NCBI GenBank assembly: GCA_039720395.1 | Contig: CM077831.1 | Coordinates: forward strand, 10,466,333 to 10,530,332 | Length of the DNA stretch: 64,000 nt | Direction: 5' to 3' | Source: Liquidambar formosana | Lineage: Eukaryota > Streptophyta > Magnoliopsida > Saxifragales > Altingiaceae | In this document: piece after piece, positions 2,221 through 59,526 of the stretch | Layout: each line of letters begins with the position of its first letter | How positions within the stretch are numbered: the first letter of the stretch is position 1 | Translations under genes and position numbers: made by a program | Notes under the pieces: generated by a model | What the model saw: only the letters and a program-made list of their open reading frames with translations | The model's database searches: none | Told to the model about the DNA's origin: nothing

Positions 2221-2265
2221 CGATATGGGAAGGTTCTAGGCAAAGCCTATAGGCACCCATATCGC
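2221..2265 (-). promoter_or_regulatory. Covarying U5 hairpin of the Tat-A solo LTR
   Basis: CGATATGGG (2221-2229) pairs perfectly with CCCATATCG (2257-2265), with an inner stem TAGGC/GCCTA. It is homologous to the hairpin at 21362-21406, but with paired substitutions. Confidence 0.7.
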
Positions 2266-4509: not shown

Positions 4510-4593
4510 GCTCGGGTGACCACCTGGGGCTGGGCGGCTAGCAGCCTGGGCCCAGGCGGCTAGCCGCCCAGGCCTGGGTGGTCACCCGAGGCC
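4510..4593. repeat. GC-rich long inverted repeat in the solo LTR
   Basis: GGCTCGGGTGACCACC near the left end is the near-perfect reverse complement of GGTGGTCACCCGAGGCC near the right end. GGCTAGC/GCTAGCC-type arms lie inside. It stands out from the AT-rich surroundings. Related blocks occur at 31146-31208 and 58755-58820. Confidence 0.75.
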
Positions 4594-18474: not shown

Positions 18475-21104
18475 GCATCACAGAATTTAGAAATTTTTTT
18501 TTTATGCATCAAAAGATGCATGTGCCCTTCACTCCTATGTTTTATAAACCCTTTTTAGATGATTTCATAGCTGGGGAGACCTCGCCTTGAGGTGTTATGC
18601 TTTGATGGGAACAATTTTAATATTATGGTTATGTATTAACTAAACACTTTTGTATTTGGCCAATGGGCGCTAGACATGTAATAACTTATGGTTTGTAATA
18701 CTTTAATTTCATAGGTCTCTTTATATGGTTTATTTGGCATGTGATGATACCAATGATAGATGACAGGAACTTTTATAACTATTTTATACAGGATTTTGTT
18801 ATGGTATGTGTCACACCCCATTTTTGCACCACCTTACTAGGGCTCATCATTTCATGCATGTTTTTGTTTTGTTTTTGAGTCTAGTCACTTGCATTAGTTT
18901 TCTAGAGTCACAAGGACAATGGATATGAATTTTGGTTCAAATTGGAGTTGATCTTGAGGGATAATAAGAGCTTTTGTGACTTGAGGGGCATAATCGTCTT
19001 TTAAGTCCCAAACTTTTCATTTGACCTTGAAATGATCTCCAAATTGTCAATTGGAGTTCATATGGATGCATAAGAGGTATTTCTAGGTTCAATTTGGTAA
19101 GTCAATGGCTCGGGATTAAAATGGCTCGATGTAGTTCAAGTTGGTTAATTGATCCCTCCTTGGGTTAGCTCTAATTGACTCACAATTACCAACCAAATCT
19201 TTTCAAATTGACTTTCATTAGTCATCATTTTACCCTCAAAAGTGTTTCATGAAGTTCAATTTTGATATGGCCTGATGATGAGTTTAGTGTGGTTATTTAC
19301 GGATTATCCTTGAAGAATTAGTGCGAATCACAGCATGAGATTTTTGGTTAAAATGAAAAGAAAATTATTTTATTAAATTAGCCATTTTTATCATGACACT
19401 AACACGTGTACGTATGTGATGAGTGTATGTACGCACATACGATACATGTGCATGCGTGTTAGCGGTCAGTCTCCCAATTTTTATAAAAGACAATTTCCTT
19501 TTCCTATTCAGATTAGAAGTCTTTTATCATTATAAAATACCTTTTGATTATTCTCCAAGGAAACCTAGTCCAGGAAGGAAAGGGAAACTCCAGATTTCAG
19601 CTATAAATACTCTCTTAATGTCTTTAAACAAGGGAGAGGAGAAGAGGGTTTGGAGGGAGTGAAATTCGTCATAATTCAGCAGCAGATTTTCTGAAAACCA
19701 GTAGTCGTATTTTAATCATAACTTTTTCATCCGAAGTCAGAATTTAATGCAATTGGTCTTGTTAGAAAGATAATTCAATTCTCTACAACTTTGTATTTCA
19801 CAAGCTTTGTCCAAATCCAACGTTTTCATACCCAAAAACGCAATTGAAGTTGCTGCTGCTGCAAAGTGACGAAAATCACTTTTCTTTTCTCTTGTTCTCT
19901 TTTTGTTTTCTATTTCTTTTCAAAGTTGAGTTGAGTTTTGATCTCTTTGCTGTGATACCACTTTGACAAAGAGGAGGATTCGTGTTGGTTTGATTCACTC
20001 TAAAGACCTGAGGAGCCACGAACAATTACAAACACAAGGGGAGCCACTTTATGCATTAATACTTGAGTGTTTGAGAGAGAATAAGGTATTCTCCTTCTCT
20101 ATTCAAGCTTAAACTAGGTTTTCATATGGGTTAGGCTTATTGCATGTTAAAGGTAGCCTTTTTATCATGTATTAACACTCTAGCTAGTTAATATACATGG
20201 AATATCTATTTTTTATCTACTGTTTAGCATGCTTTAGGGCTGTCCTTTAGGTTTTCAATGCATAGTTATGATTCTTGTGCTCCTATTTGTCCTTGTGCTA
20301 GGATTAGTGTCATTGCATGTTAGAGTTAGGATTTTCATCATGTTATATTGCTTTAGTTAGTTAATATGCATGATTTAATTTCTGTTTAGTTTGGTTTTAG
20401 CATGATTAAAGTATGTTTTGTATGTTTTTAAGCATATTTGTGAGTTTAGGGTTTTAGAGTCATTGTTTCGTGTTTGTTTTCATATAGCATGATAAAGTAG
20501 ACTTTTTTATTGGTTTTTCTTCGTGTTTGCTGTATATGTTTTTCATATGGAGTAAACATGATAGTTTTGCATGCATGTTAGTATGTTTTAGGGTTTTTAT
20601 GCATGATATGGTTCTAGGAATATGTTAGGACTTATTATTGTTCGCTGTTTTTGCTATTGGCATGCTTAGTGGATGATTTTAGGCCCATAATACTATTCTG
20701 TCCAGATTTGCATGTTAGTGTTTTCGCATGGTTTTGAGCACTTGTAAGGGTGCAAATAGGTGTGGTATTTGTCCTATGGCAAATAGGGCTGCTTATGTCT
20801 GAAATAGCTAATGTTTGGAGTAATTGCGCTCAGGTAAGTGGGTGTGAAGGTGCCCCAATTCACCTTTCTTCTTAACTCATTCTCTTCTCCCTATCTAGGG
20901 TTAATTTTTAATATGATCCTATGGTTTAATCAAAGGTTTCCTTCGTAAATAAAATTCTGGTTTTTATTAAAGTTTCCATTTTGTGGATTTCTTTCCTAAA
21001 ATCAAACTTTCTATCAAATTCAACTCTTTTGATCAAATAAGGAAACCTAGGGTTTTAACCATAGGTTTATATTAGGTCTTAACCCTAATTCTAATCGAAC
21101 TACG

Positions 21105-21200
21105 TGGACTTTGATCCATGTATTTCGTTGCATGGTACGTAGGCGCTCTTCGTGAGGCTCAAGTCCGTTCTAGGATCCAAGCATCCTAGGTTTATTTTTG
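21105..21200 (+). promoter_or_regulatory. Two U5 hairpins upstream of the covarying stem
   Basis: The first is CCATGTAT-TTCG-TTGCATGG, a stem capped by a TTCG loop. In solo LTR 2010-5298 the equivalent is an 8-bp perfect stem, CCATGTAT/ATACATGG. The second is CTAGGATcc..ATCCTAGG; the solo LTR has the perfect arms CCTAGGATAC/GTATCCTAGG. Both are retained in all Tat-A LTR copies. Confidence 0.6.
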
Positions 21201-21361
21201 TTCTCTTTTCTTCTTTTTCTTTTTCTGTTTTTATGTGCTTATTATGCATGGATGGATGAATGAAATATATGATATGCATGCAATTCTTGTGATGATATAC
21301 TTGCTGATTTTTGTATGGAAAGATCTTAATTTAGCCCAAATGAACTGAGAGACCGAAAGGG

Positions 21362-21406
21362 TGACATGGGTGCCTATAGGCTTTGCCTAGAACCTTCCCA
21401 TGTCAT
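21362..21406 (+). promoter_or_regulatory. Covarying U5 hairpin (Tat-A)
   Basis: TGACATGGG (21362-21370) pairs with CCCATGTCA (21398-21406), with an inner stem TAGGC/GCCTA. The homologous stems in the two solo LTRs (2221-2265 and 57101-57144) carry different bases but stay perfectly paired. It lies about 230 nt before the PBS, so it would be part of the genomic RNA leader. Confidence 0.75.
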
Positions 21407-21545
21407 AACTTAGCCTCCGAATCCCCGATTTCTTTGGTTTTCAAAAGATTGGTTTTTGCCTTTCCTTTTTTTATGGAGTCATTCAAATTGTTTTCCTAAA
21501 ACAACCTGATTTTTAGGGTTTTCCTTGTTTCCTTTAAAAAATAAG

Positions 21546-21556
21546 GTGGCGACTCC
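21546..21556 (+). repeat. PBS-core repeat inside Tat-A U5
   Basis: GTGGCGACTCC copies the core of the true PBS (21639-21656), about 93 nt upstream. It is conserved at 35730-35740, at 2069-2079 (- strand) and with one mismatch at 56969-56979 (- strand). Confidence 0.75.
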
Positions 21557-21638
21557 TTTCCTTTTTCTCTTTCAAACCCCCCAACTAATCTCTCCTTTCG
21601 CCAATCCCTCGTGGGCCCAATTTCCGGGGTTCACAGTT

Positions 21639-21656
21639 TGGCGACTCCACTGGGGA
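21639..21656 (+). other. Primer binding site (tRNA-Arg type) of Tat-A
   Basis: TGGCGACTCCACTGGGGA starts 4 bases after the 5' LTR end. This PBS type is reported for Ogre/Tat elements (tRNA-Arg). Confidence 0.85.
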
Positions 21657-22513
21657 TGTTGTGGGCTAGACTCTATAAAGTTTAATTAGGCTAAGTTAAT
21701 TTCTTATGTTTAATTAAAATCAATCACATTGCATCCGCTTGATTGTGTGCTTTCATTTATTGCATTGTGTGCGCAAACTCTTGCATGCTAGGATCGATGT
21801 CCCTCGATGTATCCTTGCCAACGATCGGCCTAGTCTCAACCTTGGTTTTCCTGATTCCATGTGTTGGGGCGAAAGCTATCAACCTCTCTTGCCTAGTACC
21901 CTTGGGCTTGCCCTTGGGTATATTAAATGAGTTAATCACGTACTGCTGGACCCACGCAGGCGTTCCTGATGCCACATGTGGTTAGGTATAAGGATTGCTC
22001 AAGCAAGTGAAGGACCCTAGCCTACCCTTATCATTAGTCCATATAGACAGACTTGTAGGACACTACGGTCTCACCTTTATGCACCCACAATTGTTTGTAA
22101 TGATGCTATGCCGTGTTTGTGGTGTGAGGCTTTATATCTTATGCCCTTAACATAGACCTTTAAACCCTAGCCTTCGTTAAGGCCATGGGTTAGGAGGAAT
22201 AAATTAAGGAAATAGGATGTAAAGCTATGTTTGTGATGTGCTAGTCCTAGGGGATTAATTAAACCTAGTTGAAGGACTCTATGCCCTATTCTTTAAAACA
22301 TACCCTTAATCCATGATCCCTGTAAAGGTAATTGGATAAAAGGAATGAATTAATTGAACATGGTGTAGAGACCGAGTTCATTAAGGAAAATATGGAGGTT
22401 TAGGACAAGTCCTTAGGCTAAAGGTTAAAACTTTTCTATCCATAGACGTGCTGGCTTGGATCCGCAATCCACAAGGGCGTCTAGTGAGTGTTGAGTCTAC
22501 CCATCAGACAGAC
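21657..22513 (+). other. Internal leader of Tat-A
   Basis: About 860 nt between PBS and gag with no convincing ORF. The overlapping 60-80-codon frames at 21739-21985 lack domain features and a good start. Confidence 0.6.
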
Positions 22514-25500
22514 ATGGCCGACGAAAGAACTAGTGAGGGGCACTTTGACCTTGAGGCTTGCCTGAAAGTCATCATGGCCAAGCTTGACCATACCGCCGAG
22601 ACATCCGATACCGCATTGAAAATGGCTCAAGAGAACCAACAGAAGATGGCGGATCTTGAACAAACTGGCTCTAAGGCCCATTCCTCGGGTATACCTCATA
22701 GGGCTGGCACCGAAGAGGGACCTCAATCCAATGAGAACACCAAGACAAGGGGGGAAAGTAGCTCGAAACCTGAGGTCACCAACCTAGAAGGGGAAGCCAA
22801 GGGGAAAGGTACTAGCAGTGATTCCGTGTTAGCTAGCAAGGTAGAAGCTTTGGAGAGAACCATAAAAGGGATTCGCAGGGCTGATGACATGGTCGATGTG
22901 CGGACTCTATCCCTGTTTCCAACGGCTCGTATTCCACTACAATTCAAGATGCCGGAGTTAGAAAAGTTCGATGGGACGGGTTGCCCTAAGACTCATTTGA
23001 AGATGTACGTGCGAGCTATGCACCCTCGAGAGGCTACTGACGAGCTTTTAGCTCAAATGTTCCATGAAACCTTGGCCACTTCTGCTTTGAAATGGTTCTT
23101 ATCCTTGGATGAGAATAGAACCCGGACTTGGGAAGACATATGCAATGAGTTTTCAGAGCACTACAAGTATAACACAGAGGTGGACGTTACTCGAAGGGAC
23201 CTAGAAACTACCAAGCAAGGGGCTTATGAAACTTTCTCCGCTTACATTACAAGGTGGAGACAAAAGGCGTCGAGAATGACGGATAGGCCGAATGAGGAGG
23301 ACCAAATTCAATTAGTGGTTAAGAACCTGTTGCCCGTGTATCACAAGCACCTATTTGCCCACTATTTCCCAAATTTCAAAGCTCTCATTGGGGCTGGCAC
23401 GCAGGTTGAAGATGCTATCAATGATGGGACAATCAAGACTGAGGAAGTGAGGAGTCGCAAGACAAACTTTACTGGGAAGAACAATGCCGAGGTCAACACC
23501 ATAACTCAACCAATCCAACCCTTTTCTCTCAATGATGTCAACCCACCTCGCCAATTCACTGACCTATTCATGCCACTCGAAAGAGTCCTTGAAAAGCTCA
23601 TAAGTCATGACCTATTGAAGCCACTCGACCCAAGACCTCCACCAAATCCCTTACCCAAGAGCTACAATGAGAATGAGTACTGCAAGTACCACCAATCCAA
23701 AGGCCATGCCACCAATCGCTGTATTCGCCTTCGCCACCAAGTCCAAGACCTCATTGACAAGCAAGTCATTTCACCACCAACCCGTCCAAATGTCACCCGT
23801 AATCCTCTCCCATCACACAACAACACACCCCCACCTAACACCATAAATGCCATTGGGGTTGAATCCTCTCGCCCTCGCCATCCCATAAGACAATACACTC
23901 CGCTCCCCATGACCTTAACCCGTCTCTTCACCATTTGCCGCAATAACAGCCTTATCATGCCACTTCCACCAAAGCCAAGACCATCAATCCCTCACCAATA
24001 TTGCCAATACCATCGTGCACTCGGCCATGACACCGAGGCTTGTTCTATACTAAAGAAGATCATCCAAGACCTCATTGACCAAAAGGTTTTGTTGTTGCCA
24101 AAGAAATCTATCCAACAAGAGCTGAAAGAAAGATATGAAGCAGGGGATCCTCAGGTTGGCCTATTAGGTGAAGCGTCGGGGAAATATGATTACTATGTGC
24201 TGTACTCAAGCCCAAGTCCGATATCAGATGAGCCGATAGTCCCTTCAGGTTGGGATGACTTGCCGACAGAGATGGAGAGCATCGACATGATAGAATGGGA
24301 TGACTTGATGAATGACTCCGAGGAAGTCCATGACATATGGGCTAGCGATGATGAGTTGGACCATATAACCAGAGGGGGTCGTCATTTCAAGCCCACCCAC
24401 CTAGAATCTGAAAATCCGTTGGAAGATTTGGAAGGGCAGAGGCGTCCTAGCTTGCAAGAAGAAGAGGATGAAGTGCTTAGGCAGCTGAAGAAGACCAATG
24501 CCAACATTACTACTTGGGGCTTGCTCATGGCCTCGCATAAGCACAGACAGACCGTGTTGAAACTGTTGAATCAGATACAAGTGCCTGTTGACACATCCCC
24601 CGAGGGATTGGTACATTTGGTGAATCCAACTCCCAAGAACTCAACCATCGTGTTCACCGATGTAGACCTACCTAAAAGCGGGCCGAGCCATTCTCAAGCT
24701 CTCTATGTGACCGTTGACACTATGGGGAAGAGGGTTCCCACCGTTCTTATCGACAATGGGTCTGCACTGAATGTATGTCCTCTCCGAACTGCCACTGTTT
24801 TGGGTTTGGGACCCACTGATTTCACACCATCTGGGCAGACCGTAAGAGCTTATGACAACACCCGCCGAGAAGTAATACGGGTAGTTACTTTGCCTCTTAT
24901 CATGGGACCCACTGAATTTAGGGTAGAATTCCAAGTGTTGGATGTGCCGTCATGTTTCAACTTGTTGTTGGGCCGACCTTGGATCCATCCTGCTGGGGCT
25001 GTGCCATCTTCACTCCATCAAAAGGTGAAGTTTCCTTATGAAGGAGCCATAGTAACACTTCAAGGGGACTATGAATTGAAACTCGCGGGTGTGCCTATAT
25101 GTGAGATACAACCTGAATCAGCAACGATACCGCTATCTGGGTTTGACTATGTCCAATGCATTGAAAAAGAGCTCGAAAAGGGTGAATTAATACCCTTGGA
25201 CTTTTGCCCCCATGGCAACTTGCACGTCGGTGAAATAATGAGAAAGATGAGTTTCTTTCCAGGCATAGGGCTAGGGCGTCGCCAACAAGGGATCCCTACG
25301 TCTATTCAAAGCCGTGTCACCTCATACACCTTCGGGCTAGGATATGAGCCCTCTAGAAATGATCATGCGGAAATGCTGAAGAGGAACAAAGAGAAAGTAA
25401 GAGCCAAAGCCGAGGGAAGGGTGCCAGACTTGAAGATCTCGCCATATCGACCTACTTTAAATGGTTACTTCGTCAAAGAAGGGGATGATTTTCTATATTG

Positions 25501-25852
25501 CGGGTTTCCAGAGCCCACCTTTGACCAAGCTACCAAGATCCGAGTTCCGGGTTTTGAAATCTTCTTCACCGAATGGTATCCAATCACAGCTGAAATGGTG
25601 GATGATGATGCCATCAATGATGAGTTCTGGGAAAAGAAAGAGGAGGACTGGGCAGAGAACCTTGATGCAGGGGCTATGACTGAAATGTTCCAAGACATGA
25701 TCCTCATCATGGAAGACTCGACCATTGAAGAACTCCAGGGTTCGTCCATTAGCCATGCTACCGTGCCATTCCTGAATTGGTACCTTGAATGTGGTGTCAT
25801 TGCGGAGATCCATGAAGAAGAAGACCTTGGCCTACCTGATAGCAGCTTGTAG
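22514..25852 (+). CDS. gag-pro polyprotein of Tat-A
   Basis: The frame is open from 22448, but the first ATG is 22514 (MADERTSEGHFDLEACL), which I take as the start, giving about 1112 residues. It encodes capsid and protease for the Tat-A particle. Seen: a coiled or charged N-terminus; the retrotransposon gag core at about 22960-23440 (LHLKMYVRAM-like start, then WEDICNEFSEHY); two Zn-binding-like motifs CKYHQSKGHATNRC (23683) and CQYHRALGHDTEAC (24003); the aspartic protease site LIDNGSALNVCP (about 24748) with the LLLGRPWIH flap/C-term box (24967); then a glycine-rich G-patch-like segment (FPGIGLGRRQQGIP, about 25255). It ends at TAG 25850-25852, just after a candidate splice donor that would join it in frame to pol. 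The small ORFs on the other strand here are shadows. Confidence 0.93.
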   Translation: MADERTSEGHFDLEACLKVIMAKLDHTAETSDTALKMAQENQQKMADLEQTGSKAHSSGIPHRAGTEEGPQSNENTKTRGESSSKPEVTNLEGEAKGKGTSSDSVLASKVEALERTIKGIRRADDMVDVRTLSLFPTARIPLQFKMPELEKFDGTGCPKTHLKMYVRAMHPREATDELLAQMFHETLATSALKWFLSLDENRTRTWEDICNEFSEHYKYNTEVDVTRRDLETTKQGAYETFSAYITRWRQKASRMTDRPNEEDQIQLVVKNLLPVYHKHLFAHYFPNFKALIGAGTQVEDAINDGTIKTEEVRSRKTNFTGKNNAEVNTITQPIQPFSLNDVNPPRQFTDLFMPLERVLEKLISHDLLKPLDPRPPPNPLPKSYNENEYCKYHQSKGHATNRCIRLRHQVQDLIDKQVISPPTRPNVTRNPLPSHNNTPPPNTINAIGVESSRPRHPIRQYTPLPMTLTRLFTICRNNSLIMPLPPKPRPSIPHQYCQYHRALGHDTEACSILKKIIQDLIDQKVLLLPKKSIQQELKERYEAGDPQVGLLGEASGKYDYYVLYSSPSPISDEPIVPSGWDDLPTEMESIDMIEWDDLMNDSEEVHDIWASDDELDHITRGGRHFKPTHLESENPLEDLEGQRRPSLQEEEDEVLRQLKKTNANITTWGLLMASHKHRQTVLKLLNQIQVPVDTSPEGLVHLVNPTPKNSTIVFTDVDLPKSGPSHSQALYVTVDTMGKRVPTVLIDNGSALNVCPLRTATVLGLGPTDFTPSGQTVRAYDNTRREVIRVVTLPLIMGPTEFRVEFQVLDVPSCFNLLLGRPWIHPAGAVPSSLHQKVKFPYEGAIVTLQGDYELKLAGVPICEIQPESATIPLSGFDYVQCIEKELEKGELIPLDFCPHGNLHVGEIMRKMSFFPGIGLGRRQQGIPTSIQSRVTSYTFGLGYEPSRNDHAEMLKRNKEKVRAKAEGRVPDLKISPYRPTLNGYFVKEGDDFLYCGFPEPTFDQATKIRVPGFEIFFTEWYPITAEMVDDDAINDEFWEKKEEDWAENLDAGAMTEMFQDMILIMEDSTIEELQGSSISHATVPFLNWYLECGVIAEIHEEEDLGLPDSSL

Positions 25853-26018
25853 GTGTCTTAGTTTAGTAATATTTCCCTAATTCAATAAGATGTATCTACT
25901 TTACTCACTTTGTGGAGTCATAGTATTGATACAGATTTGTTTGTTTTCCTTCTTTCTTTTGTGTGTCATTCCCATTATTCCTAGTCAATAAAGTGTGCTT
26001 TCTTTCTTATATATGCAG
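25849..26018 (+). other. Candidate intron joining gag-pro to pol (Ogre hallmark)
   Basis: Donor |GTAGGT at 25849, two bases into the final Leu codon. The acceptor is a pyrimidine-rich tract followed by TATATGCAG| ending at 26018. Removing the 170 nt deletes the gag-pro stop codon and joins frame 2 to frame 1 exactly, with TT + T forming a Phe codon. Possible branch sites are the CTAAT and CTAGTCAAT motifs within. A spliced intron between PRO and RT is known for Ogre. The -1 donor base is T rather than G, which weakens the site. Splicing itself is inference. Confidence 0.6.
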
Positions 26019-29000
26019 TGTCTCTTTTCTCTCCTCTATGGATATTTATGGCATGGATATAGATCCTAGGAACGATGTCCCCCCAGAGCTCGTTGAGCAA
26101 AGGAAAAGGGGCGTCACCGAACCTAATATGGATGAATTGGAATCAATCAACTTAGGAACGAATGAATTGCCAAGAATAGTTAAAATTGGGAAAACCCTCT
26201 CCCCCGTTGAAAAAGAAAAGATGATCTCCCTCTTGAAAGCCAACATTATGGCTTTTGCATGGTCTTATGAAGACATGCCTGGCATCGACCCTGATATTGT
26301 GCAACACTATATCCCCACTAATTCCCTAAAGAAGCCGGTAAAGCAGAAACTCAGAAGATTAAAACCAAAATGGGCTCTAAAAGTAAAAGAAGAGGTAACT
26401 AAACAACTAGACGCGGGTTTCCTCCAAGTTGTGGAGTACCCCGAATGGTTGTCGAATATAGTGCCTGTGCCTAAAAAAGATGGGAAAGTGAGGATGTGTG
26501 TCGATTTCCGAGATCTCAACGCCACGAGCCCTAAGGATGACTTTCCTTTACCCCATATCGACGTGTTGGTGGATAGTACAGTGGGACATGCACTCCTCTC
26601 CTTCATGGACGGATTCTCCGGGTATAACCAGATAAAGATGGCGCCTCAAGACATGGAGAAAACAGCCTTTATCACGCAATGGGGAACGTACTGTTACAAG
26701 GTAATGCCTTTTGGCTTAAGAAACGCTGGGGCTACTTACCAAAGAGCAGCTACGACCTTATTGCATGATATGATCCATAAGGAAGTAGAGGTTTATGTCG
26801 ATGATATGATCGTGAAGTCCGTGGATAGAGAAGGGCATTTCAAGGCACTAGAGAAATTCCTAGAGCGAGCAAAAAAGTACAACCTCCGTCTCAACCCACA
26901 GAAGTGCGCTTTTGGTGTCACTGCAGGCAAGTTATTGGGGTTTATGATCACTCAGAGAGGTATCGAAGTGGACCCAGGGAAGATAAAAGCTATTGTGGAG
27001 ATGGAGCCGCCTAGCACTGAGAAGCAGATCCGGGGTTTTCTGGGAAGAGTTCAATACATAAGCCGATTCATTGCCAACTTGACCATGGTTTGCGAACCAA
27101 TCTTCAAATTGCTTAAGAAAGGTGTGCCAAAAGTATGGAACGAAGAATGCCAAGAGGCCTTTGAGACCATTAAGAGATACTTGAGCAATCCTCCAATCTT
27201 AGTTCTCCCATGGCAAGGTGCGCCGCTTTTGTTATACTTAACGGTCACCGAAACCGCGACGGGAGCTTTGTTAGCTCAATATCTTGAAGGGTCTACAAAG
27301 GAGAATGCCATCTACTACCTAAGCAAGAAAATGACAGACTATGAAGTGAAGTACAATGCAATTGAAAAGGCTTGTGTGGCACTAGTATGGGCGACGCAGA
27401 AACTCCGGCACTACATGATGTCCTTCGAAGTGTTCTTGATAAGTCGCATGGACCCGTTGAAGTACCTGGTAGAAAGGCCAGTATTGTCATTCAGAACTGC
27501 TCGATGGTCAATTCTCCTCAATGAATTCGACATCAAGTACGTGAATCAGAAGTCTATCAAGGGAAGCGTCATCGCAGACTACCTAGCCAGCTGTCCGGTG
27601 TCATCATCCACTCCGTTCAACGATCAATTCCCAGATGAGGACGTGCTACAGATTGGTAGAAAAACTTGGAGAGTATACTTCGATGGGGCAGCCAATAAGA
27701 AAGGTTATGGGATAGGAGTCCTGCTGGTCTCACCCGAAGAGGCATTTACACCGTTGGCGGTCAAGTTGGGGTTCGAAGCCACCAACAACATTGCTGAGTA
27801 TGAGGCCTGTATCCTAGCACTGGAAGCGGCACTTGAATTGGGGATCAAAGAATTAGAAGTGTTCGGGGACTCGGCGCTAATCATTTGTCAGATAAAAGGG
27901 GAATGGAAAACTCGAGATGAGAAGCTGCTACCCTACCATGCCTACCTGGAAGCTCTAACCAAGGAGTTCTCAGAGATAGAATTTAACTACCTTTCAAGGA
28001 ACAAGAACCAGTTCGCCGATGCCTTGGCGACCCTAGCATCCATGGTGGAGATACCTGAAGAGGGAAATGTGAAGCCGTTGGTGATAGAATGCCGAGACAA
28101 GCCTGTGTACTGTTGTGCAATCCGAGGAGGAGAGGTAAATGATGGCCGTCCGTGGTTCCATGACATAAAGAAGTTCATTGAAGAAAGGGAATACCCAGAA
28201 GGAGCATCTCGTATCGATAGAAAAACCCTAAGGCGGTTGGCGAGTCACTATGTACTTTGTGGAGGAAAGCTATATCGGAGATCATACGACGGGATCCACC
28301 TGCTGTGTGTCACCGAGGAGGAAGCCGAGCATCTGATTAAAGAAATCCATGAAGGGACAGGGGCTCCGCATATGAATGGCTATATGTTAGCTAAGAAAAT
28401 CATGAGGTTAGGCTATTACTGGTCTACCATGGAAAGGGACTGCCACACACATGTCAAGAAGTGCCACAAATGCCAACTGTTCGCCAGTGGACAACATTTG
28501 CCTCCTATGCCTTTAACAAGTATGTCGTCACCTTGGCCATTCGCAGTATGGGGGATAGATATCATCGGACAGATCAAGCCAAAGGCGTCAAATGGGCATG
28601 AATACATCCTGGTTGCCATCGACTACTTCACTAAATGGGTGGAAGCAGCATCCTTCAAGACCTTGAATTCCAAGAAAGTAGCACAGTTCATACAGCACAG
28701 CATCATCTATCGATATGGGGTACCGCATGAAGTTATCTCAGACAATGGCCAGCACTTTCAGAAAGAAACCCATGAGCTCTTGCAAAAGTACGGCATAGCC
28801 CACCATCTATCGTCACCATACCGTCCTCAGACTAATGGAGCGGTGGAAGCAGCTAACAAGAACATCAAGAAGATACTACAGAAGACTGCGGACTCACACA
28901 CAGACTGGCATGAGAAGTTGCCATTGGCTCTATGGGGTTACAGAACATCAATAAGGTCGTCAACAGGGGCTACCCCTTATTCTCTAGTTTATGGAATGGA

Positions 29001-29397
29001 GGCCGTGTTGCCAGTTGAATTGGAAGTTCCTTCACTAAGAGTTGCCGTGGAGAGCCAGATAACAGAAGTGGACTGGGTTAAGAGCCGCTATGATAAGTTA
29101 GCTTTGCTGGATGAAAGGCGTTTAAGGGCGCTGTATCATGTTCAGGGGTATCAACGGAGAGTTGCCAGAGCATTCAACAAGCATGTCAAAGATCGAGGTC
29201 TAAAGAAAGGGGATGTAGTGCTGAAAGAAATCAGAGCTCCAGTGTTCGATCCGCGGGGAAAATTCAAGCCAAGTTGGGGTGGGCCATACATTATCAAAGA
29301 GATATTGCCAGCAGGGGCTGTTCGCCTCATGGATTTAGATGGAATTGAGTTCGCTCGTCTAACTAATTTGGATCAATTGAAGAAATATCATGTTTGA
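26019..29397 (+). CDS. pol polyprotein of Tat-A (RT, RNase H, archaeal-type RNase H, integrase)
   Basis: Open from 25963; after the proposed splice it would start at 26019. RT at about 26440-27000, with VPVPKKDGKVRMCVDFRDLN and the catalytic YVDDMIVKS (26793). A first RNase H at about 27225-27590 begins LYLTVTETATGALL; the usual first catalytic Asp is missing. A second, archaeal-type RNase H at about 27670-28060 has VYFDGAANKKG, AEYEACILALEAAL, VFGDSALI and FADALATLAS, with all acidic residues present. Integrase follows: an H..H..C..C zinc finger (28365-28480), catalytic Asp in WGIDIIG (28549), Asp in ISDNGQHF (28736) and Glu in AVEAANKNIKK, giving D-D-35-E. Stop at 29395-29397. It is uninterrupted and so probably active. 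The dual RNase H is diagnostic of the Tat lineage. Confidence 0.95.
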
Positions 29398-29721
29398 AGC
29401 CTGCTAGGTTGAAAACCCGTAAGGGCGGCCTAGGCAAAAGTTAAGGCATAAGAACTACGTAAGACCTGATTCTCCATTCAAAAACAAAAAAAAAAACAAC
29501 AAAAAAAAAAAACAAAAAAAAAAAAGAAGAAAAAAAAACCATGGAGATACGTAGGCAACCCATAAAGTTACCTTGGGTGCGGTCTAAATCAAACAAGAAA
29601 ATCCCAAATTTGATTTATTATTGGCAATTTATTCAAAACTAAAATTGATTGACATAGCAATTCATTGGTATTAAGTAAAAGAACTATAAATATGCCATAA
29701 ATATCCTATTCTATTGAGTCT
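29398..29721 (+). other. A-rich spacer after pol
   Basis: Begins with an 'A/C/G-only' run (29484-29539), followed by ATGGAGATACGTAGGCAACC and TTGGGTGCGG. The TACGTAGGC part also occurs inside the Tat-A LTR (TACGTAGGCGCTC near 21139). No ORF. Confidence 0.6.
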
Positions 29722-31008
29722 TCAGTTTTTCTTGGGCTTCTTTGCAGCTCGCTCCTCAGCTTTCTTCTTCTCTCTTTCATGTCTTCTTTTCTTCCTCAAG
29801 TCATGTTCATAAGCTGCTGTCACTGCTTCCATAATATCTTCTCTGCAAGATCCAAGTTCATTGTTCTTGATAAGTCCAAAAATCCTTTCTCTTCGAGTAG
29901 TCTCTCTCTCACCTAAATTGCTTTTCAACCATTCCTTATACTCGGGGCTCATCATATATGGACCATCAGTATTCGTCACTTGAGTTAGTGTCAGCTTTCT
30001 AGGCCATCGGTCCTTCGCCCAAGTCACTACAGAAAGACCCGCGGGCACCACAGGATAGTCACCTTTCAAGGAAGTGGGTATGGTTTGCATGGCGCCCATC
30101 TGACGCAGAACCCTTGAAGGCCAATAGAAGGAAGTAGACCTCAGTCCTATGAGTCTCACCATGGCGCATCCAGAAGTCCGCAGAAGCACCTGGTCACTGC
30201 AGCCCCATATGAATACAAACCACTTGACACTCCTCCAAGAAAGGGTTTGGAAGTAACCTAGCCAATCTCTCAATGAAAATTGCCCAGGTAGTTCAATGCG
30301 GCGAAGGCAGTAATGCTGGGGCTTGTATGGTGTAATGGCAACTGGTGACAAGAAATTCAGTCTTTCAAGCAACCACATTTGCAGCAGAATGGGGCTACCT
30401 CCTAAAGGAACCTTTGGGTCCTCATGGACTTTATCCAAACTATTCAGGGTTTCAGCTAGCACCATGGGAATCAAGTTATAGCCCTTGGCAAGGAGAGGAA
30501 TCAAGTCACAAATTTGTATGGGAACATGTGGAGTACCAGTTGAAATAAGGAAACGACCAATGAGGCAAAAGGCAAGAGCATGCTTAATAGGAAAGGTAAA
30601 ATTTAGAATACCTTTACTATCACAAGCTAAAAAAGAGGTTGCCAATTTCATCAAGTCTACCATATGGTCCTTTACAAACGTAGAGGCATATTGTGAGTGA
30701 ATCCCAAGTAGATTGGAGAAAGAAGTAAGAAAGCTTGGGCGAGGAGTAGGGAGAATGAAAGGACCTACCGTTGAAACTCCATACAATGCACAGAATTCCT
30801 CCATGGTTGGGCACAGTTCTTCATAGTTGAAGCGGAACACATGAACTTGAGGATCCCAAAAATATGTAGCAGCAGTCAAGAGGTTCGTTTCAAGCCTCAC
30901 ATGCCTCAAGGAGAGCAATGGATCCAAGCCAAAGCACTTGAACTCAGATTTTGCTTCAGCACTTATAACTCTCAAAAACCCTCCTAAAAATTTGTCTAGA
31001 GCCTCCAT
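29722..31008 (-). CDS. Antisense ORF of Tat-A: plant-mobile-domain / DUF7745-like protein
   Basis: 428 codons, opposite in direction to gag-pol, from ATG at 31008 to TGA at 29722. The N-terminal half has the pattern of plant mobile-domain or DUF7745 proteins (FWDPQVHVFRFNYEELCPTM..EEFCALYG). A tryptophan-rich middle (WLLERLNFL, WRSVKWFVFIWG) follows. The C-terminus is strongly basic (KKRRHEREKKKAEERAAKKP), which looks like a nuclear localisation or nucleic-acid-binding tail. Antisense extra ORFs between INT and the 3' LTR are known in other Tat-lineage elements; their role is not established. It is intact and has a TATA box 49-56 nt upstream of the ATG. The ORFs on the + strand within it are shadows. 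Confidence 0.85.
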   Translation of the reverse strand: MEALDKFLGGFLRVISAEAKSEFKCFGLDPLLSLRHVRLETNLLTAATYFWDPQVHVFRFNYEELCPTMEEFCALYGVSTVGPFILPTPRPSFLTSFSNLLGIHSQYASTFVKDHMVDLMKLATSFLACDSKGILNFTFPIKHALAFCLIGRFLISTGTPHVPIQICDLIPLLAKGYNLIPMVLAETLNSLDKVHEDPKVPLGGSPILLQMWLLERLNFLSPVAITPYKPQHYCLRRIELPGQFSLRDWLGYFQTLSWRSVKWFVFIWGCSDQVLLRTSGCAMVRLIGLRSTSFYWPSRVLRQMGAMQTIPTSLKGDYPVVPAGLSVVTWAKDRWPRKLTLTQVTNTDGPYMMSPEYKEWLKSNLGERETTRRERIFGLIKNNELGSCREDIMEAVTAAYEHDLRKKRRHEREKKKAEERAAKKPKKN

Positions 31009-31056
31009 AACTTCTAATGAATGAATACAAGTAGGTTTAGGAACCTCTTGGATGTG

Positions 31057-31064
31057 TTTTTATA
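31057..31064 (-). promoter_or_regulatory. TATA box of the antisense ORF
   Basis: TATAAAAA on the - strand, 49-56 nt before the ATG at 31008, which implies a 5' UTR of roughly 20 nt. The GC-rich inverted repeat at 31146-31208 lies just upstream. Confidence 0.6.
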
Positions 31065-31145
31065 GGGAAAAGGTCACAAATCCAAGTTCTAATAGGAAAA
31101 AACCCATCAGAATAGGAAGTTTCCTATTCAAAGTGGGATTTCCGC

Positions 31146-31208
31146 TTCGGGCTCGGGTAACCACCCAGGCCTGGGCGGCTAGCCTCCTGAGGCCTGGTGG
31201 TCACCCAA
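31146..31208. repeat. GC-rich inverted repeat upstream of the antisense ORF
   Basis: CTCGGGTAACCACC.. and ..GGTGGTCACCC form the arms, with GGCTAGCC and AGGCCT blocks between. It is homologous to the repeat in solo LTR 4510-4593 and, more weakly, to 58755-58820. I did not find it in the LTRs of this element itself. Confidence 0.7.
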
Positions 31209-31499
31209 GCCACCTTGTTTTGGCTTTCTCCCTCGCTTTGTCTCGCCTTGACGCGTGATCAAACCTCCTTCCAAATGAGATATTCAACACTTTTTGAGCT
31301 TAAAATCAATCAAATTCCATCTTGAAATCAATTCCTTGAATTGATTTTATGTTCAAAAGGGTTGAATATATTTCCCCTGTGTCATGCCAACTCAAGTGAC
31401 AATGTGTTAAGTCACTCTCCTCTTGCACCATGCCTGTTCAATCTTGATAAATTAATCATATATCCTCATTTCAAATCTTGATTTTTCATCCTACTTGGT

Positions 31500-32870
31500 T
31501 GAATATATTCATCGCTTGAATGTGTTCTTCCAGTTCAAAAGTGTTTTCACTCTTTGAATATGCTTCTCAGCTTCAAATTCTCATTCTCTATCATACTTGG
31601 TTGAATATATTCATCACTTGAATATATTCTTCCATTTCAAAAGCATGTTCACCCATTGAATATGCTTCCTAGTTTCAGATCCTCATTATCACTTACTTGG
31701 TAAAATATATTCATCGCTTGGGTATATTTCTCCATTTCAATGGTATACTCATCACTCGAGTATACTTCTCAGATCATTTGTCACTTACTTAGTTAAGTAT
31801 ATCCATCACTTGGGTATATTTTTCCATTTCAATGGTATACTCATCACTTGAGTATACTTCTCAGATATTTTGCCACTTACTTGGTTAAGTATATCCATCG
31901 CTTGGGTATATTTCTCCATTTCAATGGTATGTTCATCACTTGAACATACTTCTCAGATTATTTGTCACTTACTTGGTTAAATATATTCATGACTAGAATA
32001 TATTTCTCCATTTCAATGGTGTACTCATCAGTTGAGTACACTTCTCAGATTATTCTCTATCTTACTTGCTTAAGTATATCCATCGCTTGGATATATTTCT
32101 CTATTTCAATGGTATGTTTATCACTTAAACATACTTGTCACTTACTTGGTTAAGTATATCCATCACTTGGATATATTTCTCTATTTCAATGGTATGTTTA
32201 TCACTTAAACATACTTGCCACTTACTTGGTTAAGTATATTCGTGACTAGAATATATTTCTCCATTTCAATGGTGTACTCATCACTTGAGTACACTTCTCA
32301 GATTATTCTTATCTTACTTGGTTAAATATATCCGTCGTTTGGATATATTTCTCCATTTCAATGGTATGCTCATCACTTGAGTGTACTTCTCAGCTTACTT
32401 GGTTAAATATATCCATCACTTGGATACATTTCTCCATTTCAAAAGTATGTTCATCACTTGAACGTACTTCTCAGTCTTTTTCAATCATTAAGTATACTCA
32501 TCACTTGAGTATATTTCTCAGCATCTTTTTCATCACTTGGGTAAATATGTTCGTGACCTGAATATATTTCTCCATTTCAATGGTATACTCATCACTTGAG
32601 TATACTTCTCAGATATTTTGTCACTTACTTGGTTAAGTATATCCATCGCTTGGATATATTTCTCCATTTCAAAGGTATGTTCATCACTTGAACGTACTTC
32701 TCAGATTTCATTCTCATCACTTGGTCAAATATATTCGTGACTAGAATATATCTTTCCATTTCAAAAGTATGTTCATTCGTAGTGGCTTGAATATGCTTCT
32801 CTTATCAATTCTCAACCCTCAGTGGTTTAAGTATACTCATGACTTGAGTACACTTCCTTATTTCAGTCTC
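31500..32870 (+). repeat. Tandem array of about 91-bp hairpin-bearing repeats in the Tat-A 3' region
   Basis: The spacer CACTTACTTGGTTAA recurs near 31691, 31783, 31874, 31966, 32060, 32139, 32219, 32312, 32393, 32531, 32622 and 32717, mostly 91-95 bp apart with some units of about 80. Each unit holds two palindromes. One has AAATATATCCA/TGGATATATTT-type arms; the other has GTATACTCA/TGAGTATAC-type arms. Arm sequences vary between units while pairing is mostly kept. No ORF is supported. Tandem repeats in the 3' untranslated region of Tat/Ogre elements are known and can seed satellite DNA. Confidence 0.9.
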
Positions 32871-32978
32871 AGGTTTTCAACCTCCCATCATTGTTGGTAT
32901 CAGTGTGTGATTTCTCCGGGCTTTTTGGCCAAAAATGGGTTGTTCTTTATCATTGGTTCACAAGTGTAACTTGTTCGC

Positions 32979-32992
32979 CAATGAGGGGCTTC
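32979..32992 (+). other. Polypurine tract of Tat-A
   Basis: AATGAGGGGCTTC directly precedes TGTCACAC of the 3' LTR. It is short and imperfect but in the expected place. Confidence 0.55.
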
Positions 32993-35806
32993 TGTCACAC
33001 CCCATTTTTGCACCACCTTACTAGGGCTCATCATTTCATGCATGTTTTTGTTTTGTTTTTGAGTCTAGTCACTTGCATTAGTTTTCTAGAGTCACAAGGA
33101 CAATGGATATGAATTTTGGTTCAAATTGGAGTTGATCTTGAGGGATAATAAGAGCTTTTGTGACTTGAGGGGCATAATCGTCTTTTAAGTCCCAAACTTT
33201 TCATTTGACCTTGCAATGATCTCCAAATTGTCAATTGGAGTTCATATGGATGCATAAGAGGTATTTCTAGGTTCAATTTGGTAAGTCAATGGCTCGGGAT
33301 TAAAATGGCTCGATGTAGTTCAAGTTGGTTAATTGATCCTTCCTTGGGTTAGCTCTAATTGACTCACAATTACCAACCAAATCTTTTCAAATTGACTTTC
33401 ATTAGTCATTATTTTACCCTCAAAAGTGTTTCATGAAGTTCAATTTTGATATGGCCTGATGATGAGTTTAGTGTGGTTATTTACGGATTATCCTTGAAGA
33501 ATTAGTGCGAATCACAGCATGAGATTTTTGGTTAAAATGAAAAGAAAATTATTTTATTAAATTAGCCATTTTTATCATGACACTAACACGTGTACGTATG
33601 TGATGAGTGTGTGTATGCACATACGATACATGTGCATGCGTGTTAGCGGTCAGTCTCCCAATTTTTATAAAAAACAATTTCCTTTTCCTATTCAGATTAG
33701 AAGTCTTTTATCATTATAAAATACCTTTTGATTATTCTCCAAGGAAACCTAGTCCAGGAAGGAAAGGGAAACTCCAGATTTCAGCTATAAATACTCTCTT
33801 AATGTCTTTAAACAAGGGAGAGGAGAAGAGGGTTTGAAGGGAGTGAAATTCGTCATAATTCAGCAGCAGATTTTCTGAAAACCAGCAATCGTATTTTAAT
33901 CATAACTTTTTCATCCGAAGTCAGAATTTGATGCAATTAGTCTTGTTAGAAAGATAATTCAATTCTCTACAACTTTGTATTTCACAAGCTTTGTCCAAAT
34001 CCAACGTTTTCATACCCAAAAACGCGATTGAAGTTGCTGCTGCTGCAAAGTGACGAAAATCACTTTTCTTTTCTCTTGTTCTCTTTTTGTTTTCTATTTC
34101 TTTTCAAAGTTGAGTTGAGTTTTGATCTCTTTGCTGTGATACCACTTTGACAAAGAGGAGGATTCGTGTTGGTTTGATTCACTCTAAAGACCTGAAGGAG
34201 CCACGAACAATTACAAACACAAGGGGAGCCACTTTATGCATTAATACTTGAGTGTTTGAGAGAGAATAAGGTATTCTCCTTCTCTATTCAAGCTTAAACT
34301 AGGTTTTCATATGGGTTAGGCTTATTGCATGTTAAAGGTAGCCTTTTTATCATGTATTAACACTCTAGCTAGTTAATATACATGGAATATCTATTTTTTA
34401 TCTACTGTTTAGCATGCTTTAGGGCTGTCCTTTAGGTTTTCAATGCATAGTTATGATTCTTGTGCTCCTGTTTGTCCTTGTGCTAGGATTAGTGTCATTG
34501 CATGTTAGAGTTAGGATTTTCATCATGTTATATTGCTTTAGTTAGTTAATATGCATGATTTAATTTCTGTTTAGTTTGGTTTTAGCATGATTAAAGTATG
34601 TTTTGTATGTTTTTAAGCATATTTGTGAGTTTAGGGTTTTAGAGTCATTGTTTCGTGTTTGTTTTCATATAGCATGATAAAGTAGACTTTTTTATTGGTT
34701 TTTCTTCGTGTTTGCTGTATATGTTTTTCATATGGAGTAAACATGATAGTTTTGCATGCATGTTAGTATGTTTTAGGGTTTTTATGCATGATATGGTTCT
34801 AGGAATATGTTAGGACTTATTATTGTTCGCTGTTTTTGCTATTGGCATGCTTAGTGGATGATTTTAGGCCATAATACTATTCTGTCCAGATTTGCATGTT
34901 AGTGTTTTCGCATGGTTTTGAGCACTTGTAAGGGTGCAAATAGGTGTGGTATTTGTCCTATGGCAAATAGGGCTGCTTATGTCTGAAATAGCTAATGTTT
35001 GGAGTAATTGCGCTCAGGTAAGTGGGTGTGAAGGTGCCCCAATTCACCTTTCTTCTTAACTCATTCTCTTCTCCCTATCTAAGGTTAATTTTTAATATGA
35101 TCCTATGGTTTAATCAAAGGTTTCCTTCGTAAATAAAATTCTGGTTTTTATTAAAGTTTCCATTTTGTGGATTTCTTTCCTAAAATCAAACTTTCTATCA
35201 AATTCAACTCTTTTGATCAAATAAGGAAACCTAGGGTTTTAACCATAGGTTTATATTAGGTCTTAACCCTAATTCTAATCGAACTACGTGGACTTTGATC
35301 CATGTATTTCGTTGCATGGTACGTAGGCGCTCTTCGTGAGGCTCAAGTCCGTTCTAGGATCCAAGCATCCTAGGTTTATTTTTGTTTTCTTTTCTTCTTT
35401 TTCTTTTTCTGTTTTTATGTGCTTATTATGCATGGATGGATGAATGAAATATATGATATGCATGCAATTCTTGTGATGATATACTTGCTGATTTTTGTAT
35501 GGAAAGATCTTAATTTAGCCCAAATGAACTGAGAGACCGAAAGGGTGACATGGGTGCCTATAGGCTTTGCCTAGAACCTTCCCATGTCATAACTTAGCCT
35601 CCGAATCCCCGATTTCTTTGGTTTTCAAAAGATTGGTTTTTGCCTTTCCTTTTTTTATGGAGTCATTCAAATTGTTTTCCTAAAACAACCTGATTTTTAG
35701 GGTTTTCCTTGTTTCCTTTAAAAAATAAGGTGGCGACTCCTTTCCTTTTTCTTTTTCAAACCCATTTTCTTTCAATCCCTTGTGGGCCCAATTTCCGGGG
35801 TTCACA
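32993..35806 (+). repeat. 3' LTR of Tat-A
   Basis: 2814 bp, TGTCACACC..GGGGTTCACA. By eye it differs from the 5' LTR at about 16 substitutions, two 1-bp indels and a short replaced block near 35757-35775. TATA box at about 33785-33792. Confidence 0.96.
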
Positions 35807-35951
35807 GTATGTTCCATTTACGAATGGGTCATACTGAAATTTTTATTGAAATTACCGGTTTTCTAACACGTGCGTCTTAAATGATTTTCTTAATTAACTG
35901 TATTTATTAATATTAATCACGGCTTAATTAATTTTGGGTCGTGACACATTT

Positions 35952-36610
35952 CGTATGGATGCTGTTTTTTATTGAGTATTGCTTTTGGTGATAAATTTTG
36001 CCATTGTGGCAACCCATACAGTAGCTTAATATAGAATGGGTAATTCTTTTGATAATGGCACGCATGGATTGGTTTAGGAGTTGACATTGGGGGAGTGTTC
36101 CTTAGCCCATAAGCACGATGACTTCATGATTGCTGAATCGATGTTCTTGCGGTGGCCATGCCATAGCATTTATGGCAAGTTTGGTGCTAGGTTATGCATA
36201 AATGTAAGTCAAGCCATAGCAAGAGTGGAATTTGCAAATAGATTTTATGCTATTTCCATGGATAAAAAGCAGGTTTGCTTTTTTTATGGCTCCTCTAATA
36301 GGTAGACAGCAAAAAATTAAGAAATATGAATAACTTGTAGAGTGAGCACTGAATCAAATTTCTTAATAGTCAAATAGCTAAAAGAAATTAAAAAGCTGGA
36401 AGAATACTTCCCAAAAGTTTTATTACTTTCATAGGGGTTGCAATTATGTAGCTAGAACATTGATGGCATGCCCCCTTGATAGGTATAATGTAGAGTCCCA
36501 AACTCTGACAATTTGACAAATGGTCTTCAACTTAATTTAAAAGACCTTAGTTATCTATTTTGGTTGTGCCCCCACCTGTTATGCTTTGGAAATTAAAGTG
36601 ACAGACACAA
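35952..36610. other. Stretch without recognisable gene
   Basis: An open frame at 36081-36305 shows no similarity I recognise and no start context. It is probably chance, or a remnant of an older element. Confidence 0.45.
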
Positions 36611-56857: not shown

Positions 56858-57100
56858 GTAAGGGTGTTAACCATGGCTGTTTTTTGGGAGGAAAGTGTGA
56901 ACCCACGAAAAAGCACGGCCCACAAAGGTTTGGCAAAAAATACAGAGGTGAAAGACAACAAACAAAAAGGAGTCACCACCTCATTTTTTAAGGAAAAGAG
57001 GAAAACCGTAAAATGTTTTATTTCCAAAACCTCATGACTCCATTTTAAAAGGAAAGGCAAAGTCTTTAAAACCAGAAAATTGGATTCGGGGGCTAAGTTA

Positions 57101-57144
57101 CGATGTGGGAAGGTTCTGGGCTAAGCCCATAGGCACCCACATCG
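57101..57144 (-). promoter_or_regulatory. Covarying U5 hairpin of the second Tat-A solo LTR
   Basis: CGATGTGGG (57101-57109) pairs with CCCACATCG (57136-57144). The inner stem TGGGC/GCCCA (57117-57129) replaces TAGGC/GCCTA of the other copies with both sides changed. Confidence 0.7.
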
Positions 57145-58754
57145 CTCGAGTTGGTCTCTTAATTTGATTGGGCTAATTTAATAACTTAATCACATGCAAA
57201 ACAGTATCAATCAATAAAACACAGCATGCATAACATATATCCCATCCATCCATTTCATCCATGCATAATCAAACAAAGAAAATAAAATAAAACAGAAAAA
57301 AGAAAAGAGAAGAAAAACCTAGGATACTTGGATCCTAGAACGGACTTGAGCCTCAAAAAGAGCGCCTACTTACCATGCAACGAAATACATGGATCAAAGT
57401 CCACGTAGTTCGAATAGAATAGGGTTAAACCCTAATAGAGACTCATGGTAAACCTTAGGTTTCCTTCCATAGTAATTTTCGAAGACAAATGATTCTCAAT
57501 AAGATTTCAATGAAAGGTATAGACTTTTGAAAAGGGGTGGAAAGAAACCCTAGAATTTACCATATCCCTCTATTAGAAAATAACCCTAGGAGGGAGAAGA
57601 GAGAAGAAAGGTTAGGAAAAGTGAATTGGGGCACTTCATACCCTACTTACCTTATGCAATTTTCTCCAAGCAATAGCAAGCTCAAGCGATAACGACCTTA
57701 TTTGCAATAAGGCCATTATTGTACCTGTTTGCACCATTACAAGTGCTCAATGCATATCAAAAAGGATAACATAACAATCTGGACAGATAGTATTAAGGCT
57801 CAAAGTCATCCACTAATCATGTTATCAACAAAAACAGTGAATAAATAGAGACCTTAATGCAACCCTAATCTCATGTCATGCATAAAACCCTAAAAATCCA
57901 CTACATGCATGCAAAAACTATCATAGTTATTCTATATATATCATATATATAATAACCATGAAGAAAAACAGAAAAGAGAACCTATTCTATCATGCTATAG
58001 GAAACTTGTGTGAATTTAGGGTTATCGAAACCCTAATTTCACAACTATGCATTAAAGCATATGAAACGATTCTAACACATGCTCAAATCATCATGAATAT
58101 CATTCATATCATATGTATTAAATAACAGGAGCGTCAACTCATGACAACAATCACAGCGAATAGACTATATGAACTATGCATGATTTAAGAAGACAAAAAG
58201 AGTAACGCTTTCAAATCCTTAGTAAACTAAAGATTATCAAGCACATAGAACCATGAATCATCTTAAAATCATGCATATCATATCACAAAAGCATGGAATT
58301 AACCTAACATGTGGAGTTACAACATGCACTAGAACTATCATAGAAGAAGGAGAAGGAGAAGGAGAAAACCTATATTCAGCATTCAAAAAGAGTGCTTACC
58401 TCTTGTAGAACCTCCCTTGCCTTCAAAGTCCTTGTTCTCTTGCTTGCTTAGGGTTGAAAAGCCTTCTCTTGATGTCCTTCTAGCTCTCCAAACTCGTAGC
58501 TCCCTTTCTCTCTAAGTGTAAAGTGCACTTGTGGCCCCCTATGTGCTGAATATCATGTTCTTTATATAGAGAACTGACCCCATGAACCAATGGTTAAGAT
58601 TAATTCATTAAACAATGATCCTAGGGCTATTAGAGACTCTCTTGGTGCTCAAACAACTCAAACTTACACACTCCTAAGAGAAAACAAGTTGTAATGGCGG
58701 AGGAAACCGTCAAAAGAGGGAGAGAAGAGTCAGAATTTCACTTGAAGACGGATT

Positions 58755-58820
58755 CCCTCGGGTAACCGTCTGGGCTTGGACGGCTGATCGTCTGGCCCCA
58801 GATGGTCACCCGAGGGCTCC
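58755..58820. repeat. GC-rich inverted repeat in the second solo LTR
   Basis: CCTCGGGTAACC.. and ..GGTCACCCGAGG form the outer arms, with GGACGGC and GATCGTC inside. It is homologous to 4510-4593 but more diverged. Confidence 0.65.
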
Positions 58821-59526
58821 CATCAGCATTCCTCGGTTAGACTTCTTCGTCTTCTGGAAGTCTTTCAGGGGGTCAAATTAAGTCCGATTTTGACGAAATA
58901 AAAGCCAAAACGACCGTGTTTCGAAGGGGAACACATTTTTAAGCATTTTAGGACAAAAATACTTAACCATGGGTGCATGGTTAGGTTTTACAAAGGTGGT
59001 TAACCATGGTGCCTCACCGTCGCTAAGCTGGGTTTGTACACAAGGTCGAACCGAATGCTTTCCCAATCGAAATTCAATCTTTTTAAACACACCTAGGATG
59101 TAAATAAAGCCCAATTGAAGTTAAATGAGAGAAAATTGGTTGGGTCTTATGAGTCAATTTGAGCAAACCAAGAAATGGTCTTTTAGCCAACCCGAACCAT
59201 TATGAGCCGAATTGATCTTAAACCATTAATTCATGAAATTGAACCTATATATAGATTCTACATACTCATATGAACTCGAGGGAATGACTCGGGATTCATT
59301 TCAAGGTCAAATGGAAAGTATACGACTTAAAAGACAACTATGCCCTTAAAGTCGCAAAAGTTCTTATTGACTATCGAGATGAACTCCAAATCACTTCAAA
59401 ATTCATACACATGATATTCAATGCCATAGAAACTCAATGCAAAAGACTAGACTCGAAAAGGATTCAAAATCCTACATGAAATGATATGTCCTAGCTAAGG
59501 TGACAAAAATGGGGTGTGACAGAAAG

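Follow-up and report, generated by a model that had tools for sequence, protein, structure and literature searches.

The 3' tandem repeats of a Tat-type retrotransposon in Liquidambar formosana are probably a train of RNA hairpins kept by selection, which would serve the genomic RNA as a multivalent cis-acting element. There is good support for selection on base pairing, and the hairpins likely act in the sense RNA. Tandem repeats of this kind were already known from Tat elements; the new part is the covarying hairpins that selection keeps in them.

The retrotransposon and its hairpin train

The window, the whole stretch of 64,000 nucleotides that was analysed, contains a complete Tat-type LTR retrotransposon at 18809-35806, with the target duplication GTATG on both sides (18804-18808 and 35807-35811). 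The 5' LTR (18809..21635, plus strand, TG...CA) and the 3' LTR (32993..35806, plus strand) are about 2.8 kb long each and show 98.8% identity in a BLAST self-match. The gag-pro ORF (22448..25852, plus strand, 1134 aa) matches PF03732, and its Gag translation, read by eye, contains two knuckle-like CX2HX4HX4C motifs. Domain matches place RT, RNase H, a second RNase H-like domain (RVT_3) and integrase in the pol ORF (25963..29397, plus strand), with RT_RNaseH and RVT_3 both ahead of rve. A second RNase H-like domain ahead of the integrase is presumably a mark of the Tat lineage. Downstream, on the minus strand, an antisense ORF of 428 aa (29722..31008, start codon at 31008) carries a plant mobile domain (PF10536 / DUF7745); its protein has five relatives in the database. 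The LTR ends with their target duplication, the second RNase H-like domain, the 3' tandem repeats and the antisense ORF were all found, and by these sequence features the element is an LTR retrotransposon of the Tat lineage, probably Ogre-like. A scan of viral contigs returned no relatives in other hosts.

The domain list of Ogre includes RH, aRH and INT (excerpts of PMC7004042), and an antisense ORF together with a tandem array between pol and the 3' LTR is known for the Tat lineage (excerpts of PMC11963269 and PMC7004042). Retand elements likewise have antisense ORFs in this region, but the LTRs of those surveyed in the consulted part of PMC11963269 measure 315-1194 bp, a range that does not include the 2.8 kb of the window element.

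Between the antisense ORF and the 3' LTR, and hence upstream of the former, lies a train of 28-29 RNA hairpins (31470..32870, plus strand) with an 11-bp stem and a 5-nt loop, ordered in H1-H2 modules of about 91 bp. Twenty-eight hairpins are clear (31501-32855) and a 29th, at 31539, is weak, in agreement with the initial annotation, which had described a tandem array of paired hairpins with a unit of this length. All share a frame of an 11-nt arm, a 5-nt loop and an 11-nt arm, and H1 and H2 alternate along the array with a few gaps. The spacing from H1 to H2 is usually 38, while that from H2 to the next H1 is variable, which gives the unit of about 91 bp. H2 occurs, always on the plus strand, in the versions GTATGTTCA/TGAACATAC (for example at 31925..31951), GTATGTTTA/TAAACATAC (32110..32136), GTGTACTCA/TGAGTACAC (32270..32296) and GTATACTCA/TGAGTATAC (32581..32607). 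These four arm versions and the two reported for the first hairpin are all present in the array. The first palindrome exists as annotated but is longer than had been stated: in H1, of which 31887..31913 (plus strand) is an example, three extra pairs (TGG/CCA) extend the stem across a 2x2 internal loop. H1 and H2 have the 27-nt frame in common and a similar loop and 3' flank, and thus look like one hairpin that was duplicated and then diverged. A stem of 11 bp is about one turn of an RNA helix, which may or may not matter for function. With 11-14 pairs, the stems are rather short for processing by dicer, a point that bears on the hairpin-derived small RNAs envisaged by the initial annotation.

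The 308 arm cells of the window array comprise 261 Watson-Crick pairs, 31 G.T, 4 A.C and 12 other combinations, 9 of the last being the outermost T-T of H2. A pairing-aware finder detected 26 hairpins in the array; 30 shuffles yielded 0.77 on average and never more than 4. A weight matrix built from the 28 hairpins found nothing above a cut-off score of 6 on either strand of 46 kb taken from the remainder of the window. Rfam, searched at a permissive threshold over 29000-36000, gave three matches below their gathering scores, none of them within the train. The loops, described earlier as near constant, turned out to vary as much as the stems: among 64 units from four loci, the mean distance is 0.28 in loops and 0.26 in stems, with 0.37 and 0.47 in the near flanks. 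This degree of loop variation weakens the idea of loop-specific recognition. A coding array was rejected for the window element on three grounds: its period is not divisible by three, the spacers are variable and no ORF of at least 150 aa covers the array.

The wider sample consists of 82 loci of the same genome, with 2435 hairpins and 446 distinct 27-mers, assigned to family A, that of the window element, and to B, a more diverged sister group that was searched with locus L015. It combines 8 loci of the first search (window copy included), 20 of 32 other full-length matches, 38 of the 39 other B places listed and 16 stretches, namely those covering the first 100 listed places of a 23-nt hairpin pattern; loci L045-L048 were dropped as duplicates. 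The pattern has 5918 forward and 6040 reverse matches genome-wide, 11958 in total, and none when read backwards; the first 100 matches listed, which bear on whether long satellite arrays exist outside elements, sit in short clusters. As the copies of A and B were ascertained by the hairpins themselves, the counts cover train-bearing copies, and the weight matrix that located their hairpins is blind to pairing and can miss badly decayed units. Each locus holds 9 to 52 hairpins. The distance from H1 to H2 is 38 in 1043 of 1189 cases, whereas the gap after H2 is mainly 42-64 (1163 cases); distances above 130 were excluded, and those around 90-102 probably span a hairpin that was missed. With the first distance nearly constant and the second variable, the H1-H2 pair appears as a fixed module. 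At L016 1388, the array is interrupted by another LTR of the same type that begins inside it, which suggests insertion or recombination within the hairpin train.

Covariation and selection on base pairing

The initial annotation had proposed that the arms covary, and comparison with shuffled pairings bears this out. Among the 25 distinct rows of the window array, 94.9% of cells pair against 87.9% after shuffling, and 31 cells have changed on both sides against 7.7 (each 0 of 500 shuffles). Two-sided changes occur in 8 of 11 pairs against 3.9, a count reached by 1 of 500 shuffles, and sliding the partners against each other abolishes the covariation. The number of further pair types in these rows is not above the shuffles (276 of 500). 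In the table of 2435 hairpins, left and right arm cores match.

Shuffles ignore relatedness, and neutral change was therefore simulated along a tree. The first simulation used a tree of 64 units from four loci, with tree windows that include the stems. Here, 8 of 9 pairs covary against 2.5-2.7 under neutrality (0 of 1000), and the fraction of Watson-Crick cells is 0.875 against 0.65-0.66 (1 and 0 of 1000). The second placed the 86 types shared by at least three loci on a minimum spanning tree and applied the observed number of changes, drawn from the spectrum seen in private ones. Two-sided changes were found in 9 of 11 pairs against 3.1-3.5 and Watson-Crick pairing in 86% of cells against 69-70% (each 0 of 1000). 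The fraction of other mismatches is 0.023, where neutrality gives 0.136 (0 of 1000 runs as low), and that of A.C is 0.024, where it gives 0.07 (14 and 6 of 1000 runs as low). Since the observed covariation lies far above both neutral simulations, duplication from few ancestors does not explain the arm versions, and copying alone is insufficient, as had been suspected from the window array.

A second line of evidence comes from the age of the changes. A change confined to one locus would mostly reflect decay after insertion, and one found in at least three loci would have passed through replication. Private changes that hit a Watson-Crick pair produced 84 G.T, 64 A.C and 75 other combinations, a count from which 18 of 296 private hairpins were excluded as too distant from any shared type. 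The steps among shared types comprise 48 G.T, 18 A.C and 5 other, plus 5 two-sided steps. Ties in the minimum spanning tree that links the shared variants shift the counts slightly (48:18:5 versus 50:18:6). The difference between private and shared changes, G.T against broken pairs, has P=1.7e-5, and 1e-5 to 3e-3 over ten settings, with tree steps treated as independent. A slot-by-slot count of family A singletons gave 15:13:8. Transitions and transversions among shared changes number 76:9 in stems and 50:21 in flanks (P=0.004); among private changes, stems (130:80) and flanks (136:95) are alike (P=0.56). Unpaired changes, which the initial annotation thought might prove equally numerous across more elements, are thus abundant among one-copy variants and few among variants in at least three copies. 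The simulations and the private/shared contrast together support its suggestion that the hairpins of this Tat/Ogre 3' tandem array are under constraint.

The alternative that survives best, although it is unlikely, dispenses with selection: one arm would be rewritten from the other during reverse transcription, by hairpin-templated template switching or quasipalindrome correction. Palindromes would then mend themselves, and matched changes would spread with the units. Template switching is favoured in tandem arrays, and this one is copied by reverse transcriptase. Some shared variants do differ by two-sided changes in one step (5; 4-7 across settings), and private changes, being mostly post-insertion, are incapable of showing arm rewriting. 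However, such a process is expected to leave mostly two-sided steps, whereas 4-5 of these stand against 45-50 one-sided steps between Watson-Crick and G.T pairs in the loosest setting, and 5-7 against 24-34 in stricter ones. It should also erase G.T, A.C and other mismatches alike and not spare G.T, yet the ratio of G.T to other mismatches is 48 to 5 among shared changes and 84 to 75 among private ones.

Related families and the probable strand of action

The window also holds LTR-like stretches of two related families on the minus strand (2057-5302 and 56896-59521), which are 67-78% identical to those of the window element over aligned pieces. A GC-rich structured stretch of the window element at 31105-31240 (RNA-folding z -4.3) contains CCAGGCNNGGGCGGCTAGCC, which recurs exactly at 4558-4577 on the opposite strand, within a related LTR-like stretch. 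No hairpin array of this kind lies beside the stretches at 2057-5302 and 56896-59521 within the window, so the genome was searched for elements of their families, C and D. Parts of the LTR-like stretches were used, with 40 scored genome matches each, and same-orientation pairs 8-18 kb apart were sought; three presumed elements of each family were then analysed at their 3' ends, separately from the A/B counts.

Family C has a 78-bp array, the unit of which folds into two hairpins. The finder recovered 5, 3 and 6 hairpins in the tracts of C and 7, 10 and 10 in those of D; shuffles averaged 0.4-0.7 and did not exceed 3. One stem of D occurs with T-A, T.G and C-G versions at one pair; in C, with the final, longer unit of each locus left out, only one pair shows a two-sided change. 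C and D have two hairpins in common, which differ by G.T versus A-T at one pair each, and the three families sampled (A/B, C and D) therefore represent two unrelated hairpin sets. The resemblance of C and D to the window element is limited to the final stretch before and into the LTR (131-191 bases, 81-86%) and does not include the array, and the weight matrix found no copy of the window-type hairpin in their tracts. At two C loci (L087 and L088), the 78-bp array is spanned by an ORF on the sense strand (137 or 146 aa), which the third (L089) lacks. A coding array, possibly for a repeat protein, is less clearly rejected in C, but the ORF was taken as probable chance because single-base length changes between units put its repeats in more than one frame.

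A separate stem-loop (32950..32984, plus strand) stands right before the purine-rich stretch and the 3' LTR, and families B, C and D have it too. The three D loci (L090 1963, L091 1977 and L092 1993) all show a two-sided change in it from A-T to G-C, with GCAAGT/ACTTGC in place of ACAAGT/ACTTGT.

On its sense strand, the window array has a local folding energy of -29.6 kcal/mol per 120 nt, compared with -14.2 for shuffles (z -19); on the antisense strand, the energy is -23.1 compared with -14.9 (z -10). The z values of the sense strand are -18.1 in A, -21.6 in B (one locus), -5.8 and -5.2 in C, and -7.5, -9.2 and -7.2 in D. Control regions gave +4.0 (gag), +1.8 (pol), -2.2 (LTR) and, upstream of the tract, +1.5 in C and -0.8 in D. 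The sense energy is below the antisense energy in all seven tracts, by a slight margin in B. In C and D, the shuffles of the sense strand are lower in energy as well, so composition explains part of the gap between the strands; at two of the three D loci, z is in fact larger on the antisense strand.

The wobble pairs also bear on the strand. A G.T on the sense strand is an A.C on the antisense strand, and an excess of G.T therefore favours the sense, that is genomic, RNA. The private/shared test of G.T versus A.C gave P 0.02-0.14, below 0.05 in 4 of 10 settings. Among the 86 shared types, 26 and 50 of 1000 simulated runs attained the observed G.T share of 0.79; in the smaller test of 64 units, the share was not significant (89 and 178 of 1000). 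Strand bias was not judged from finder hairpins of C and D, because the finder used there favours G.T over A.C.

A function as structured DNA, in which the palindromes bind a dimeric protein or form cruciforms, for example as an enhancer of the antisense gene, is improbable. The array does lie upstream of the antisense start codon at 31008, a possible promoter site. The letters of its arms, however, differ widely with complementarity intact, which is not the pattern of a fixed binding site, and the wobble excess, which is moderate evidence, is confined to one strand. In addition, the 2-3 kb before the 3' LTR of C and D (L087-L092) contain no antisense ATG ORF of more than 93 aa, ORFs overrunning the ends being uncounted, so the train does not need a plant-mobile-domain ORF close by. 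Somewhat more doubtful still is a role as leader hairpins in an antisense transcript that control the plant-mobile-domain protein. This would suit a train upstream of the antisense start codon and an antisense strand that folds more strongly than its shuffled versions, with z -11.1 for the window array and -3 to -16 for the other tracts, but each sense G.T would be an A.C mismatch there, and it is G.T that is commoner among shared variants. Least credible is a passive array, grown by recent duplication of one palindromic monomer whose pairing has not yet decayed: family-specific tandem repeats are known at the same place in the lineage (PMC11963269 and PMC7004042, consulted in part), but neutral change yields 69-70% Watson-Crick cells and 3.1-3.5 covarying pairs, against the observed 86% and 9 (0 of 1000 each).

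Proposed function and its meaning for Tat elements

On balance, we lean towards reading the array as a cis-acting element in the 3' untranslated portion of the genomic RNA, in which one small hairpin is repeated many times. The trait under selection would be base pairing in the sense RNA, with the letters secondary. The train may form a multivalent landing platform near the 3' end of the genomic RNA that is read by shape and number, and by its action the full-length RNA would be exported and packaged. The preservation of pairing while letters, loops and copy number change suits a feature read in this way. If only shape matters, units can be freely duplicated, lost and changed, which would account for the hypervariable arrays of the lineage; hypervariable 3' regions were reportedly described in 2009. 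Among putative binding partners, the element's own Gag, for packaging, would be the most likely candidate, and the two CX2HX4HX4C motifs count in favour of this proposal; a host double-strand-binding or export factor may serve instead.

Constitutive transport elements also lie near a 3' LTR, have repeated loops and drive export via a host receptor. Those of simple retroviruses (M-PMV type) are RNA elements of the unspliced genomic RNA (excerpts of PMC4829213). The train resembles them by description, but it consists of tens of short stems, and its loops are as variable as the stems themselves. LINE RNA is recognised by the element's own reverse transcriptase via a stem-loop near its 3' end (PMC5135761, consulted in part); in contrast, the window element is an LTR element with another priming route, and it carries many hairpins instead of one. 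The closest relatives are the 3' repeats of Ogre and Retand, which occupy the same place between pol and the 3' LTR and have family-specific units and variable array lengths (excerpts of PMC11963269 and PMC7004042). The window train differs from these described repeats in that its units are paired hairpins with covarying arms. According to the consulted part of the 2025 survey (PMC11963269), the origin and function of Tat 3' tandem repeats are still unknown. The word hairpin has no occurrence in the main text of PMC11963269, PMC7004042 or the soybean paper PMC3305785. Covarying or constrained hairpins in Tat 3' repeats are likewise absent from titles and abstract openings in the literature searched, subscription papers and supplements aside, and such a class of cis-acting RNA elements is not described there.

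Whether Tat retrotransposons as a rule carry a 3' RNA hairpin train, the shape of which is kept while sequence and copy number change fast, is a more tentative generalisation, drawn from copies and families A-D of one genome, but it is a real possibility. It raises a testable question, namely whether hairpins also occur in other Tat families whose arrays share no sequence, as they do here in A/B, C and D. The trains also provide hundreds of natural hairpin variants with which the evolution of RNA structure by way of G-U intermediates can be studied. Repeats whose units are hairpins under selection would have a role in the RNA of the element. Tat tandem repeats before the 3' LTR have been reported as seeds of plant satellites (excerpts of PMC7004042), and these satellite-seeding arrays would, if the proposal is true, be by-products of selection for many hairpins.
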